A stretch of DNA of 64,000 bases. It comes from Arachnia propionica. GTDB taxonomy: Bacteria > Actinomycetota > Actinomycetes > Propionibacteriales > Propionibacteriaceae. The DNA lies in NCBI RefSeq assembly GCF_003859805.1, contig NZ_RQZG01000008.1, positions 62,001-126,000 of the forward strand. Direction: 5' to 3'. The notes below the pieces were generated by a model. It saw only the letters and a program-made list of their open reading frames with translations. It made no database searches and was not told the DNA's origin. The position numbers and the translations under genes were made by a program. This document shows positions 44,820 through 49,876 of this stretch, piece by piece (the stretch's first letter is position 1; each line of letters opens with the position of its first letter).

Positions 44820-46249
44820 GGGCCAGGCGGCTCAGTGAACTGGTCGAACTCATGCAACCAGCACCCGTCGAGGTCCTCGGCGACGACGCCGTGGTGGGAC
44901 CGGACGTGGTGCTCGACAATCGGCATGTCACCCCGGGGGCCCTGTTCGTCGCGATCCCCGGTGAGCGGGTGGACGGCCATGACTTCGCCCCTGACGCCGC
45001 CCAGGCAGGTGCTGCTGCGGTGCTCGGCACCCGGCTCACCGAGGCAAGCCTGCCTCACCTGCTGGTGGAGGAGAGCGTCTCCGGTCTTTCCTGGCTGGCA
45101 CGGGGCATCGTGCGTGAGGCCCGTGCCGGGGGCATGAGGAGTCTCGGCGTCACCGGGTCCTCCGGGAAGACCTCCACCAAGGACCTGCTGGCCCAGGTGC
45201 TGGAGGCCGAGGGGCCGACGGTGGCGCCCGTCGGGAGTCAGAACAACGAGATCGGGGTTCCCCTGACCGCCTGTCGGGTCGATGACGACACCCGATTCCT
45301 GGTCTCCGAGATGGGGGCGCGGGGCGTGGGTCACATCGAGTGGCTGACCTCCCTGGTCGGTCTCGACGTCGGAGTGGTCCTCAACGTCGGTGCCGCCCAT
45401 GTCGGGGAGTTCGGTGGGGTGGCTCAGACCGCCAGGGCGAAGGCGGAGATCATCTCAGGCCTGACCGCCGATGGTTGGGCGGTGCTCAACGCCGACAGCC
45501 CGGCCTGTCGTGACATGGCCTCGCTCACCTCGGCCCGGTTGGCCTGGTTCGGTGAGGGTGGACTGCCCCGGGGGGAGATGCAGGTCTTCGCCCGTGACGT
45601 GGCGTGCAACGAGTCCTCCCAGCCACGGTTCACCCTGATGGCCCGCCGGGGTGAGATGGAGGAGCAGGCCCCGGTCGAGCTCCAGGTGATCGGCCGCCAC
45701 CAGGTGAGCAATGCACTGGCAGCCGCAGCCGCGGCCCTCGCCGTCGGCATGGACATCGCCACGGTGGCCGAGCGCCTCTCCGCGGCGCAGCCCCGCTCCA
45801 GCTGGCGCATGGAGCTGATGCGGCTGAGAGAGGACCGGCTCGTGCTCAACGACGCCTACAACGCCAACCCCGAATCGATGGCGGCAGCCCTGCGCACGGC
45901 GAGTGAGCTGGCCATGGTGCAGCGGCAACGCCACCCCGGTGCCCGCCTCATCGCGGTGCTGGGGGACATGCTGGAGCTGGGGTCGATGACCACGGCGCAT
46001 CACACGGCGATGGGGCGGCTGGCAGCCGATCTCGAGGTGGATGAGCTGCTGGCCGTCGGGGAACACGCCCCCGTCCTCGCCGCCGCCGCGGTGGAGGCGG
46101 GGACCCGTGCCCGGGTCGCCACCCGTGAGGAGGCCGCCGAGCTGCGCCTCGAGGCCGGGGACGTGCTGTTGGTCAAGGGGTCGCGTGGCATCGGTCTGGA
46201 GCAGGTCGCGGCCGCCGTCGCGGAGAACGTGGGGGAGGAGCAGTCGTGA
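44816..46249 (+). CDS. murF: UDP-MurNAc-tripeptide--D-Ala-D-Ala ligase MurF
   Basis: The 477-residue ligase adds D-Ala-D-Ala to complete the cytoplasmic pentapeptide precursor. Domain 1 has GALFVAIPGERVDGHDF; the ATP loop is GSSGKTST (residues 114-121); SQNNEIGVPLT and VLNVGAAHVGEFG bind substrate; domain 3 has NDAYNANPESMAAALRT and VLGDMLELG. Length and motif order are standard. It is embedded by 4-nt overlaps between murE and mraY. Confidence 0.96.
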   Translation: MRARRLSELVELMQPAPVEVLGDDAVVGPDVVLDNRHVTPGALFVAIPGERVDGHDFAPDAAQAGAAAVLGTRLTEASLPHLLVEESVSGLSWLARGIVREARAGGMRSLGVTGSSGKTSTKDLLAQVLEAEGPTVAPVGSQNNEIGVPLTACRVDDDTRFLVSEMGARGVGHIEWLTSLVGLDVGVVLNVGAAHVGEFGGVAQTARAKAEIISGLTADGWAVLNADSPACRDMASLTSARLAWFGEGGLPRGEMQVFARDVACNESSQPRFTLMARRGEMEEQAPVELQVIGRHQVSNALAAAAAALAVGMDIATVAERLSAAQPRSSWRMELMRLREDRLVLNDAYNANPESMAAALRTASELAMVQRQRHPGARLIAVLGDMLELGSMTTAHHTAMGRLAADLEVDELLAVGEHAPVLAAAAVEAGTRARVATREEAAELRLEAGDVLLVKGSRGIGLEQVAAAVAENVGEEQS

Positions 46250-47316
46250 AGACCATCCTGCTGGCGGGCGCGCTGGCCCTGCTGATCACCCTGTTCGCCA
46301 CACCACGCTTCATCACGTTCCTGACCAGGCGTCAGTACGGGCAGTTCATCCGCGACGACGGGCCGCAGGAACACCTCACGAAACGGGGTACCCCCACGAT
46401 GGGTGGGGTGGTCATCGTCGCCTCCGTCGTGCTGGCCTACACGTTGGCCCACCTGATCCTCTGGCAACCCCCGACCGTCTCCGGGTTGTTGCTGATCGGT
46501 GTCACGGCAGCGATGGGCTTCCTCGGTTTCCTCGACGACTGGGCCAAGATCTCCAAGGAGCGCTCCTTGGGGCTGACCGCCCGTGGCAAACTCATCGGCC
46601 AGTTCCTCATCGGCGGCACGTTCGCGGTGCTGGCCCTCAACTTCCCCGATGAGCGGGGGCTGAGACCCGCCTCACAGTTCATCTCCTTCCTGCGGGACAT
46701 CCCGTGGCTGCACCTGCCGTTCATCCTGGCGGTGGTCTGGATCGTGTTCCTCCTCATGGCCTGGCCGAACGCCACCAATCTCACCGACGGTCTCGACGGT
46801 CTGCTGGCGGGCAGCGCCACACTGGTCTTCGCGGCACTGACCCTGGTCAACATCTGGCAGTTCAACCAGTGGTGCGGCCGCAGTTCCAGCGTCGGCCCGC
46901 TCTGCTACGAGGTGCGGGACCCCTACGACCTCGCGGTGGTGGCCTTCGCGATGGCGGGGTCCTGTTTCGGTTTCCTGTGGTGGAACGCGAAGCCCGCGAG
47001 GATCTTCATGGGGGACACCGGCTCGATGGCCATCGGAGCGGCACTGGCCGGTCTGTCGATCCTGACCCGGACCGAGTTGCTGATGGTGGTGCTGGGCTTC
47101 CTGTTCGTCATGGAGGCGGGGTCGGTGGCGCTCCAGGTGGGCTACTTCAAGCTGACCAAGGGCAAGCGCATCTTCAAGATGTCACCGATCCATCACCACT
47201 TCGAGCTGCTCGGGTGGGCCGAGGTGACGGTGGTGATCCGGTTCTGGATCATCTGTGGGCTCTGTGTGGCCACTGCCATCGGGCTGTTCTACACCGAGTG
47301 GGTGACGGGACAGTGA
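46246..47316 (+). CDS. mraY: Phospho-MurNAc-pentapeptide transferase MraY
   Basis: The 356-residue integral membrane enzyme of about ten helices transfers phospho-MurNAc-pentapeptide to undecaprenyl phosphate, forming lipid I. Signatures are GTPTMGGVVI, GFLDDWAKISKERSLGLTARGK, the catalytic Asp loop WPNATNLTDGLDGL, AKPARIFMGDTGSMAIG and the His-rich MSPIHHHFELLGW. The GTG start overlaps the murF stop and its own stop overlaps the murD-like gene. Confidence 0.97.
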   Translation: MKTILLAGALALLITLFATPRFITFLTRRQYGQFIRDDGPQEHLTKRGTPTMGGVVIVASVVLAYTLAHLILWQPPTVSGLLLIGVTAAMGFLGFLDDWAKISKERSLGLTARGKLIGQFLIGGTFAVLALNFPDERGLRPASQFISFLRDIPWLHLPFILAVVWIVFLLMAWPNATNLTDGLDGLLAGSATLVFAALTLVNIWQFNQWCGRSSSVGPLCYEVRDPYDLAVVAFAMAGSCFGFLWWNAKPARIFMGDTGSMAIGAALAGLSILTRTELLMVVLGFLFVMEAGSVALQVGYFKLTKGKRIFKMSPIHHHFELLGWAEVTVVIRFWIICGLCVATAIGLFYTEWVTGQ

Positions 47317-48242
47317 GCGGTCGGCTCGACGGCAGGCACGCCGTGGTGGCTGGACTCGGTCTCTCCGGCATGGCCGCCGCCGATGCCCTGATCGCACTGG
47401 GGGCCGAGGTCACGGTGCTCGACGACGACCCCGGGCTCACGGATCGGGCCGGGCTTCTGGAGTCCCTGGACGCGACGGTTCGGCTCGGGGTGGGGGCCAC
47501 GGCCCGGCTGCCCGAGGAGTGCGATCTGCTGGTGCTCTCGACGGGCTGGAGCGGCACCGAGCCGCTGGCGGTCGAGGCCGCCGGGCGCGGTGTGGCGGTG
47601 TGGAGTGAGGTGGAGCTGGCCTGGCGGCTCCACTCGTTGGGTGCGACGGTGCCCTGGGTGGGGGTCGCAGGAGAGCGGGACCGGGTCGAGGTGGCCCGGC
47701 TGGTGACGGCGATGCTGAGTGCCGGGGGACTGCGGGTGGCCGAGGCCGGATCGTGCGGCCGCCCAGTGGTCGAGGCCGTCCTCGACGACGCCCCGCGTGA
47801 CGTGATCGTCGTCGAGCTGTCCGCCGCGCAGCTGCGGGGTGTGGAGAGCATGGCCCTGCACTCGGCGGTGGTGCTGGCCTCAGGGAGCGACGACGCCGAC
47901 CTGGCCCGCTGCTACGAGCGGGTCACCCATGCCTGCGTGTACAACGTCGAGGACCCCGCCACCGAGGACATGGTGGCCGAGGCGGAGGTGACCGAGGGGG
48001 CGCGCGCCATCGGGTTCACCACGGCGATCCCGGCCATCTCGATGGTCGGCGTGGTCGATGACCTCATCGTGGATCGCGCCTTCGTGGCGCAGCGCCACAG
48101 CTCCGCGCTGGAGCTGGCCAAGGTCGATCAGGCCGGTGGCCGGGTCGCCCAGGCCGCAGCCGCGGCGGCCCTGGCCAGGAGCCTCAAGGTCCCCGCCCAG
48201 GCGGTGGCGGCTGGGCTGCGGGCCGTGAACGACCGGGACTGA
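47313..48242 (+). CDS. murD: Degenerate, truncated MurD homologue (309 aa)
   Basis: Position and sequence identify a MurD relative: domain 1 (HAVVAGLGLSGMAAADALIALG, ELAWRLHS) is intact and many domain 2 segments are recognisable (VVELSAAQL, ACVYNVEDPATEDMV, RAIGFTTAIP, LIVDRAFV). The ATP loop expected as TGTNGKTTT reads AGERDRVEV (residues 119-127), with no GK[ST]. The central NxxxDHLD element is replaced by SGSDDADL. The protein stops after GLRAVNDRD, where domain 3 (about 130-150 residues) should begin. Full-length MurD is about 450-480 residues. It is therefore unlikely to ligate D-glutamate. The frame has no internal stop, so it may survive as a non-catalytic protein. GTG 47313 overlaps the mraY stop. 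Confidence 0.85.
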   Translation: MSGRLDGRHAVVAGLGLSGMAAADALIALGAEVTVLDDDPGLTDRAGLLESLDATVRLGVGATARLPEECDLLVLSTGWSGTEPLAVEAAGRGVAVWSEVELAWRLHSLGATVPWVGVAGERDRVEVARLVTAMLSAGGLRVAEAGSCGRPVVEAVLDDAPRDVIVVELSAAQLRGVESMALHSAVVLASGSDDADLARCYERVTHACVYNVEDPATEDMVAEAEVTEGARAIGFTTAIPAISMVGVVDDLIVDRAFVAQRHSSALELAKVDQAGGRVAQAAAAAALARSLKVPAQAVAAGLRAVNDRD

Positions 48243-48646
48243 CCGGTGGAGGGCGCGCGAGCAGGGCTCGCAGCGTCGTTTCGGGACCACCCGGGCCATG
48301 TCCGCGCCCCCACCCGGTCCCACTGGTCGTGAATCGTCGCTTTTGCGTCACTTCGGGACCACTCTGCCCCAGTGGTCGCGAACGGATTCCGCTGGAGCAG
48401 TGGTCCAGGTCCTCTTAGGTGGGCACGAATCGCCGTTCTGCTTGTCCCAGACCCCTGGTGAAACGTTCCAAGCACAGGCAACCCGCCAGTTCGGGCGCGC
48501 TCCTGTTCGCGCAGCCTCTTGGCAGTGATTGACCGACACGCGGGCCGCCTCCACCCCATTGCCCGCTTCAGCCACGAACATGGTGGGTGGACGGGCCGCG
48601 GGGCGCCGTTTCGTCCGTCTTCCCCGTCAGCGCCTCGAGGAGTGAG
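48243..48646. other. Non-coding gap with palindromic repeats inside the dcw operon
   Basis: This 404-bp stretch separates the shortened murD from ftsW, in a cluster where genes otherwise overlap by 4 nt. It has no convincing reading frame. It contains two related units, at 48280-48333 and 48352-48382, each beginning TTCGGGACCAC and ending CASTGGTCGYGAA. The second folds into a 7-bp hairpin. The ftsW promoter or ribosome-access region may be in its last 60 bp (CGAGGAGTGAG before the ATG). Confidence 0.75.
48280..48382. repeat. Two diverged copies of a REP-like palindromic unit
   Basis: Unit A spans 48280-48333 and unit B 48352-48382. Both have TTCGGGACCAC at one end and CACTGGTCGTGAA or CAGTGGTCGCGAA at the other. 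In unit B GACCACT (48357-48363) pairs perfectly with AGTGGTC (48371-48377) around a 7-nt loop. The design resembles intergenic palindromic repeats. Confidence 0.55.
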
Positions 48647-49876
48647 ATGTCCAGCACCTCAGTGACGGCACCACCGCCCGGTTCCCTGGTGCGCAGCTTC
48701 ACCCGTTCCCCGATGGCGGATCACCACCTCATCATCTTCGCCACGGGCATCCTCACCGCCATCGGCACCATGATGGTGCTGTCCTCGAGCGCGGTGATCG
48801 CGCTGTCACAGGGGGAGTCACCGTACTACTTCGTGATCCGCCAGCTGCTGTTCCTCGCGGTCTCCCTGGTCGTGCTCATCCCGATCAGCAGGATGAGGCC
48901 GGATCTGCTGCGTCGGCTCGGCACCGTCGGCTGGATCCTCGCCTTCGTGGGGCTGGCCCTGGTCCAGACCCCCCTGGGGTTCGAGATCTACGGGAACCGG
49001 AACTGGATCAGGGTGGGCACACTGTTGACCATCCAGCCCTCCGAGTTCGCCAAGCTCGGCCTGGTGATCTGGGGGGCATCGGTGTTCCACGTCAAGCGCC
49101 GCAAGCTGCACCGACCCATGGATCTGTTCATCCCCTTCGCCCCGGGCGCGTTGGTCCTGCTCGTCCTCATCCTCATCGGCAAGGACCTCGGCACCGGTCT
49201 GGTCTTCGGGGCCATCATCTTCTGCCTGCTGTTCTTCGTCGGTACCCCGTTGCGCATCCTCGCCCCGGTGGGGCTCACCGTCATCGGTGTGGTGACCCTC
49301 CTGATCATGGGATCCCCGAGCCGCAGGGCGCGTTTCATGATCTTCTTCGACCCCCAGTCGAACGCCGACCTGGCCTCCCAGCCGATGGCCGCACTCTACG
49401 CCCTGGCCTCCGGCGGTTGGTGGGGGCTGGGGCTCGGGGCCAGCAAGCAGAAGTGGGGCGGCCTCAAGGAAGGGGCCCACACCGACTTCGTGTTCGCCGT
49501 GCTCGGGGAGGAGCTCGGCCTCTTCGGCGTGCTGCTGGTGCTCGGCCTGTTCGCACTTCTGGCGCGCAGTGGTTTCCAGGTGGCGCTCCAGTCCGACAAG
49601 ATGTTCAATCGACTCGTCGCGGCGGGGATCACCAGCTGGTTCCTGCTCCAGGCCCTGGTCAACATCATGGTGGTCATGAACCTGCTCCCCGTCCTCGGCG
49701 TGCCGTTGCCCTTCATCTCCTCGGGAGGATCAGCCCTCATGTCCAACCTCATGGCGGTCGGTGTCCTGCTGGCCTGTGCCCGTGACACACCGCGGGCCCG
49801 CGCCCACCTCGCAAGCCGCAAGAAGGCCCCGGGGCCCCGGATGACCAGTGTGCTGGCGGCAGGGGCGGACTCGTGA
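48647..49876 (+). CDS. ftsW: Septal SEDS glycosyltransferase FtsW
   Basis: The 409-residue ten-helix SEDS protein polymerises lipid II at the septum with FtsI. Family motifs include SSSAVIALSQGESPYYFVIRQ, EIYGNRNWIRVGTLLTIQPSEFAKLG, GKDLGTGLVFG, GGWWGLGLGASKQKWGGLKEGAHTDFVFAVLGEELG and the C-terminal LPVLGVPLPFISSGGSALMSN. The catalytic Asp is in the AHTDFVFA/EELG region. The ATG at 48647 follows GAGGAGTGAG. It starts a second block of overlapping genes after the 404-bp gap, and its stop overlaps murG. Confidence 0.96.
   Translation: MSSTSVTAPPPGSLVRSFTRSPMADHHLIIFATGILTAIGTMMVLSSSAVIALSQGESPYYFVIRQLLFLAVSLVVLIPISRMRPDLLRRLGTVGWILAFVGLALVQTPLGFEIYGNRNWIRVGTLLTIQPSEFAKLGLVIWGASVFHVKRRKLHRPMDLFIPFAPGALVLLVLILIGKDLGTGLVFGAIIFCLLFFVGTPLRILAPVGLTVIGVVTLLIMGSPSRRARFMIFFDPQSNADLASQPMAALYALASGGWWGLGLGASKQKWGGLKEGAHTDFVFAVLGEELGLFGVLLVLGLFALLARSGFQVALQSDKMFNRLVAAGITSWFLLQALVNIMVVMNLLPVLGVPLPFISSGGSALMSNLMAVGVLLACARDTPRARAHLASRKKAPGPRMTSVLAAGADS

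Follow-up and report, generated by a model that had tools for sequence, protein, structure and literature searches.

The dcw cluster in the 64,000-nucleotide stretch of Arachnia propionica DNA analysed here (referred to as the window) carries, between mraY and ftsW, a murD gene too short to encode a full-length ligase. This raises two questions: how D-glutamate is incorporated in this bacterium, and why a murD frame stripped of its ligase parts is still found in the cluster.

The truncated murD of the dcw cluster

The gene lies on the forward strand at positions 47313..48242, starts with GTG and overlaps by 4 bases the frame of its upstream neighbour, which we take to be mraY (46246..47316, forward strand); the downstream neighbour (48587..49876, forward strand) is presumably ftsW. 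As proposed in the first-pass annotation, which was made from the sequence alone, the open frame codes for 309 residues that cover domain 1 of MurD and a portion of domain 2, and ends at the domain 2/3 linker, where domain 3 should begin. The product scored 98.7 bits against the murD profile TIGR01087, covering profile positions 2-192 and falling below the curated cut-off of 211.95, and neither Mur_ligase_M nor Mur_ligase_C was among its Pfam matches at E≤0.001. In the same cluster, murE, murF and murC form long open frames that match Mur profiles, in line with the earlier reading that the other mur genes are complete.

We aligned the truncated protein (hereafter the relic) with 41 full-length dcw MurDs, using the numbering of E. 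coli MurD and what we take to be its catalytic residues. The alignment confirmed the losses noticed at first pass. The former P-loop (47667..47693, forward strand) reads AGERDRVEV where intact MurD has TGTNGKTTT, leaving no GTNGK(S/T)T motif and converting K115 to R and T116 to V. H183 is deleted, N138 is replaced by S, H270 by G and N271 by R. The in-frame loss of the loop holding H183, together with the change of K198 to L, maps approximately to 47877..47906 (forward strand), and R302, D317 and K319 disappeared along with domain 3 and its DSK motif, leaving E157 as the sole kept residue among those checked. All 41 intact MurDs are identical at K115, N138, E157, H183, K198, H270, R302, D317 and K319, and 40 of them have T116. 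What the relic shares with intact dcw MurD is its place between mraY and ftsW, domain 1, most of domain 2 and the predicted fold, whereas the P-loop, H183, K198, R302, D317, K319 and domain 3 are lost. The solved MurD structure nearest to the predicted fold is 3lk7 (TM-score of 0.75 by query length); the underlying AlphaFold model, built with 7 aligned sequences, has a mean pLDDT of 75, with high confidence in domain 1 and unreliable values below 50 for residues 239-275.

The same truncated form occurs in two other assemblies, at 93% and 73% identity to the relic, one of them Arachnia propionica OH2822_COT-296; the other named relative with this form is the Propionibacteriaceae MAG S30M_Sa_58. 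Since three assemblies share this form, an assembly error is unlikely, and we rejected both this and a frameshift as the origin of the short gene, the frame being free of internal stops. A split murD with domain 3 encoded elsewhere was also rejected: a search of the same genome at E≤10 yielded nothing that matched the last third of TIGR01087 on its own, and the only matches extending beyond profile position 300 were murC, murF and murE of the window and a second MurD (see below).

The distance from the relic to ftsW is 345 bp in this genome (G000, a 3.40-Mb assembly in which the window spans C68:62001-126000) and 74 and 58 bp in its two nearest relatives. About 270 bp following the relic stop (approximately 48243-48518) are missing from these two relatives; this insert contains a 25-nt unit in two copies (48273-48297 and 48345-48369).

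MurD2, MurL and the missing murI

The genome codes for one other MurD (MurD2), on another contig (G000:C6:95636-96907; locus L014, 7628-8935). It is a full-length ligase with P-loop and K198, and its 267 bits against TIGR01087 exceed the cut-off; the second MurD-type ligase that had been postulated is thus present. The murD2 gene overlaps by 11 bases a gene coding for a 448-residue MurL epimerase (L014, 8925-10271). MurL matched NF041275 over most of the model length (positions 37-441 of 447; 338 bits, E = 7e-101), below the cut-off of 700; the model takes its name from Xanthomonadales and is thus probably not broad enough to cover actinobacterial MurL. No match to murI was obtained in the genome at E≤10; among 14 control genomes, this search matched 11, 8 of them over the cut-off.

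The MurD2-MurL route is already known. In the accessible parts of the published work, MurD2 of Xanthomonas oryzae attaches L-Glu, which is then epimerised by MurL, and reverting the two changes that set the L-Glu choice of Xanthomonas MurD2 (D182->E, K348->R) switched the enzyme to D-Glu (PMC8788868). The Xanthomonas pair is reported to rescue the D-Glu-requiring E. coli strain WM335 when both proteins are supplied, but not singly; orthologues from Micromonospora and Salinispora were confirmed in vitro (PMC8788868; PMC5808125). The same parts of PMC8788868 name Micromonospora, Actinoplanes, Verrucosispora and Salinispora as actinobacterial genera with this pathway, Arachnia not being among them. 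As in X. oryzae, murL and murD2 are adjacent in the genome studied here, murI is missing and MurD2 carries both L-Glu determinants, with E at E. coli position D182 and R at K348; it has L at K319. Among the 17 MurD2s read, all have R at K348 and L at K319, and 15 have E at D182, D being kept in G165 and G729. Given that genes for MurL and MurD2 are present and murI was undetected, incorporation of D-Glu has, on the sequence evidence, most likely been taken over by the MurD2-MurL route. The first-pass annotation had offered a second ligase and an unusual D-Glu route as alternatives; both appear to hold at once.

We inspected ten murI loci, in which DUF2017 was identified as a Pfam match and the names NaPRT, clpS, rph and rdgB are those that we presume to apply. 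All three congeners among them (G003, G031 and G019) have the order NaPRT-clpS-DUF2017-murI-rph-rdgB, which in the other seven loci, from other genera, is partial or absent at the threshold used. DUF2017 directly precedes rph in G000, G010 and G024, with murI missing between them, and murL-murD2 adjoin NaPRT; in G204 and G214, murL adjoins rph, as if it had taken over the position of murI.

Using the 448-residue MurL as a query, we found MurL in 7 of the 198 genomes searched in the family (E≤1e-10), in 24 of 391 genomes of the order (E≤1e-20) and in 20 of 393 genomes of the class (E≤1e-20), 16 of the latter 20 being outside the order. None of the 24 MurL-positive genomes of the order has a murI match over the cut-off. 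Within the family, murI was detected at E≤1e-5 in 0 of 7 MurL carriers compared to 181 of 191 non-carriers (176 over the cut-off; Fisher P = 9e-9), and nine of the ten non-carriers lacking murI are less than 90% complete. The tenth, the congener G026 (loci L027 and L123), is listed as 100% complete and has an intact MurD; neither murI nor MurL was found in it. In family f3, none of the 17 carriers and all 11 non-carriers have a murI match exceeding the cut-off, and weak matches below 32 bits, probably to other superfamily members, occurred in 4 carriers and 4 non-carriers. Genome G364 has murL and murD2 close to ftsW, murG and murC (L222, 8470-13994), apparently inside the dcw cluster. A quick MurL tree of 38 of the 40 carriers (G651 and G658, which had no locus available, were omitted) placed the MurLs of the order in several positions, the order label requiring 4 changes, at least 3 of them forced.

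Fate of the dcw murD within and outside the order

A murD search in 60 relatives matched 59 and gave loci for 30; among the rest, length was checked for those refetched. In total, 61 dcw murDs were read, from 23 MurL carriers and 38 non-carriers (27 congeners and 11 genomes of family f3). Relics of 304-365 residues, with domain 3 cut at the same domain boundary, were found in 20 of the 23 readable carriers of the order (G000, G010, G024, G165, G204, G214, G049, G350, G562, G651, G658, G679, G680, G697, G699, G704, G722, G729, G732 and G736). The other three carriers (G702, G713 and G714; loci L171, L173 and L169), in which murI was not found, have an intact dcw murD and represent an apparent intermediate stage. 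In contrast, the gene is intact in 38 of 38 non-carriers and a relic in none, so that relics were found only together with MurL (20/20; Fisher P = 3e-13, uncorrected for kinship). A 24th carrier, G006 (87% complete), stands outside this count: no dcw murD was seen in it, but its contig ends inside ftsW.

All 20 relics are open frames. They end near the domain 2/3 linker (after ..GL.), those of G214 and G204 running on for 20-40 residues without likeness to domain 3. Domain 3 is gone but the P-loop lysine is kept in G704 and G729, suggesting that domain 3 goes first. A quickly built MraY+FtsW tree covering the 61 genomes, which carried a long-branch warning, requires 10 changes of the relic label, at least 7 of them forced by well-supported branches; as a lost domain is unlikely to return, we read these changes as separate losses.

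The murD state could be told for nine of the 16 MurL carriers outside the order. Three (G268 and G488 of family f19, and G299 of family f17) keep an intact MurD that, by eye, looks different in the segment retained by the relics (see below). From the other 13, ten regions were examined (G240, G382 and G388 were left out), of which six spanned mraY to ftsW and four fell short of mraY. In these six (G298, G584, G523, G284, G273 and G413), only 192-608 bp separate mraY from ftsW and no MurD match was detected there (tblastn, 1e-8); such a gap is too short for a relic, indicating that murD is gone from that place. In this sample, retention of the relic is thus a habit of the order and not of the MurD2-MurL pathway. 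The six carriers also speak against the idea that the sole purpose of the frame is to let translation pass from mraY to ftsW, as do the 345 bp that lie between the relic and ftsW in G000 and the conservation of specific residues, none of which a spacer needs. Although the relic starts at most 40 bases from the end of mraY in all 20 genomes, as would suit such a spacer, we regard this explanation as very improbable.

Selection on the relics and a candidate second role

Across the 20 relics, the residues that are invariant in intact MurD have largely disappeared (K115 is present in 2, H183 in 2, K198 in 0, R302 in 0, H270 in 2, N138 in 4 and E157 in 6). The mean frequency of the commonest residue in 15-residue spans over the P-loop fell from 0.90 in intact MurDs to 0.58 in relics and from 0.87 to 0.48. 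In contrast, a retained segment comprising residues 200-268 (47910..48116, forward strand) has a core, residues 217-263, whose conservation in relics is close to that in full-length MurD, with frequencies in intact MurDs and relics of 0.83 and 0.83 for residues 217-231, 0.86 and 0.85 for 225-239, and 0.77 and 0.75 for 241-255.

Pairwise dN/dS over the whole length, which the first-pass annotation had suggested computing, ranged from 0.13 to 0.39 in eight relic pairs compared to 0.04-0.17 in five intact pairs, indicating purifying selection on the relics. Pooling four non-overlapping relic pairs (of the eight) and four intact pairs (of the five) gave pN/pS of 0.16 in the segment and 0.26 elsewhere for relics, and 0.08 and 0.12 for intact MurD; the relic values, about twice those of intact MurD, are far below 1 (Fisher tests of equal rates, P = 7e-20 and 2e-60). 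Within the segment, dN/dS was as low as 0.029 (G000/G010) and 0.017-0.028 (three pairs among G679, G680 and G697), and 0.13-0.27 in the other four relic pairs. We rejected the idea that close pairs show extra selection on the segment: the effect is strong in four of eight (0.017-0.029), but the ratio of nonsynonymous to synonymous changes in the pooled pairs did not differ significantly between the segment and the rest of the relic (P = 0.24). The special status of the segment consequently rests on deep conservation and not on recent pairs. An antisense or nucleotide signal was likewise rejected as the cause of the constraint since dS in the segment resembles that of the rest (0.23 and 0.24 for G000/G010), which argues that the constraint acts on the protein.

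The relics thus look like functional proteins under a constraint weaker than that on intact MurD, and the relic has the attributes of a pseudoenzyme, namely loss of catalytic residues, a fold that is kept according to the predicted model, and purifying selection. Loss of the ligase parts, repeated retention in 20 genomes and purifying selection together support the first-pass view of a non-catalytic relic whose short form has been kept for some time. We judge it unlikely that these genes are instead slowly decaying pseudogenes, drifting since the takeover and held in frame by operon packing. The doubled pN/pS, the graded series from G704 and G729, which keep the P-loop lysine without domain 3, to fully stripped forms, and the intact copies in three MurL-positive genomes would fit such decay. 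It is harder to reconcile with 20 of 20 open frames and a pooled pN/pS of 0.16-0.26, with dS values that place the constraint on the protein, and with the persistence of the same residues across lineages that underwent about ten separate truncations.

A function acquired after the takeover, as partner or regulator of MurD2 or MurL, would agree with the exclusive co-occurrence of relics and MurL and with one strong relic-specific change: all 41 intact MurDs have F at column 172, part of the SSFQL motif (window positions 47826-47828, relic residue 172), and 14 of 20 relics have A there. However, apart from one C-terminal gap column there is no other signature confined to relics, the remaining majority differences also occurring in 11 to 19 of the 41 intact MurDs; segment identity is similar among relics (0.66) and between relics and full-length MurDs (0.65), and the MurLs of relic carriers are scattered over several places of the MurL tree. 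We thus assign a low probability to this reading. What the relics retain matches intact MurD, F172 to A being the one strong change specific to relics, which suggests that the second function predates the takeover.

We propose that MurD2-MurL probably took over and that the stripped dcw MurD is a retained pseudoenzyme with a ligase-independent role. The MurD2-MurL pair would have made the chemistry of dcw MurD redundant, whereupon the old MurD could lose its ligase parts (domain 3, the P-loop, K198 and H183) while an open, selected frame stayed in its place in the operon. The remaining domain 1-2 body would still perform another task, independent of ligation, that dcw MurD of this order had before the takeover. 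Most likely it binds a partner in the wall-synthesis or division machinery, with FtsW, SepF, DivIVA, FtsZ or a kinase as candidates; the contact surface would first be sought in residues 200-268, and the body may be a scaffold specifically. A sensor that binds UDP-MurNAc through domain 1 would be a special case of such a role, compatible with our proposal. Domain 1 is modelled with high confidence and at least 19 of 20 relics have G14 and G19, but S18, P77, R80 and P81, each shared by 40 or more of the 41 intact MurDs, survive in no more than 10 of 20 relics. Losses of fixed domain 1 positions in half or more of the relics make UDP-MurNAc sensing less likely, and we hold it to be highly unlikely.

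A precedent for our proposal of a retained, ligase-independent role is found in M. tuberculosis, where, in the accessible parts of the report of a fragment-complementation screen, Mur ligases including MurD contact division proteins, with FtsZ, FtsW, FtsQ, Wag31, a SepF orthologue and PknA/B listed as contacts of Mur ligases and MurI as a further contact of MurD (PMC3605390). Those contacts involve full-length ligases, and the same parts describe no inactive form (PMC3605390), whereas the relic is predicted to be inactive. Several points count against the proposal: MurI, a contact of MurD in that screen, is gone from the genome studied here; G702, G713 and G714 carry MurL beside an intact MurD; pN/pS is higher in relics than in intact MurD; the pooled test does not set the segment apart, and in four of eight relic pairs its dN/dS is 0.13-0.27; model confidence is low for residues 239-275; and the MraY+FtsW tree is a quick one with a long-branch warning. 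Moreover, the six outside carriers without murD between mraY and ftsW indicate that the role is not general. The accessible parts of the work on the Xanthomonas-type MurD2-MurL pathway do not mention a retained inactive MurD such as the one present here (PMC8788868; PMC5808125), and a literature search that covered mostly titles and the beginnings of abstracts, with few subscription papers, returned no description of a retained inactive or truncated MurD beside MurL.

Mur ligases are regarded as enzymes and drug targets, and a structural role is hard to probe since their chemistry is essential. Here, the MurD2-MurL route is extended to Arachnia and its order, and evolution seems to have parted MurD catalysis from a structural role some seven to ten times. 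We lean slightly towards the view that in Propionibacteriales the ligase-independent function of dcw MurD is so important that the ligase was repeatedly cut away and the rest kept, which would make the relics natural separation-of-function forms. That selection keeps the stripped protein of a cell-wall enzyme suggests a second, so far unnamed job. The relics would mark the part of MurD that is needed without catalysis, and the question of its structural role thereby becomes testable.
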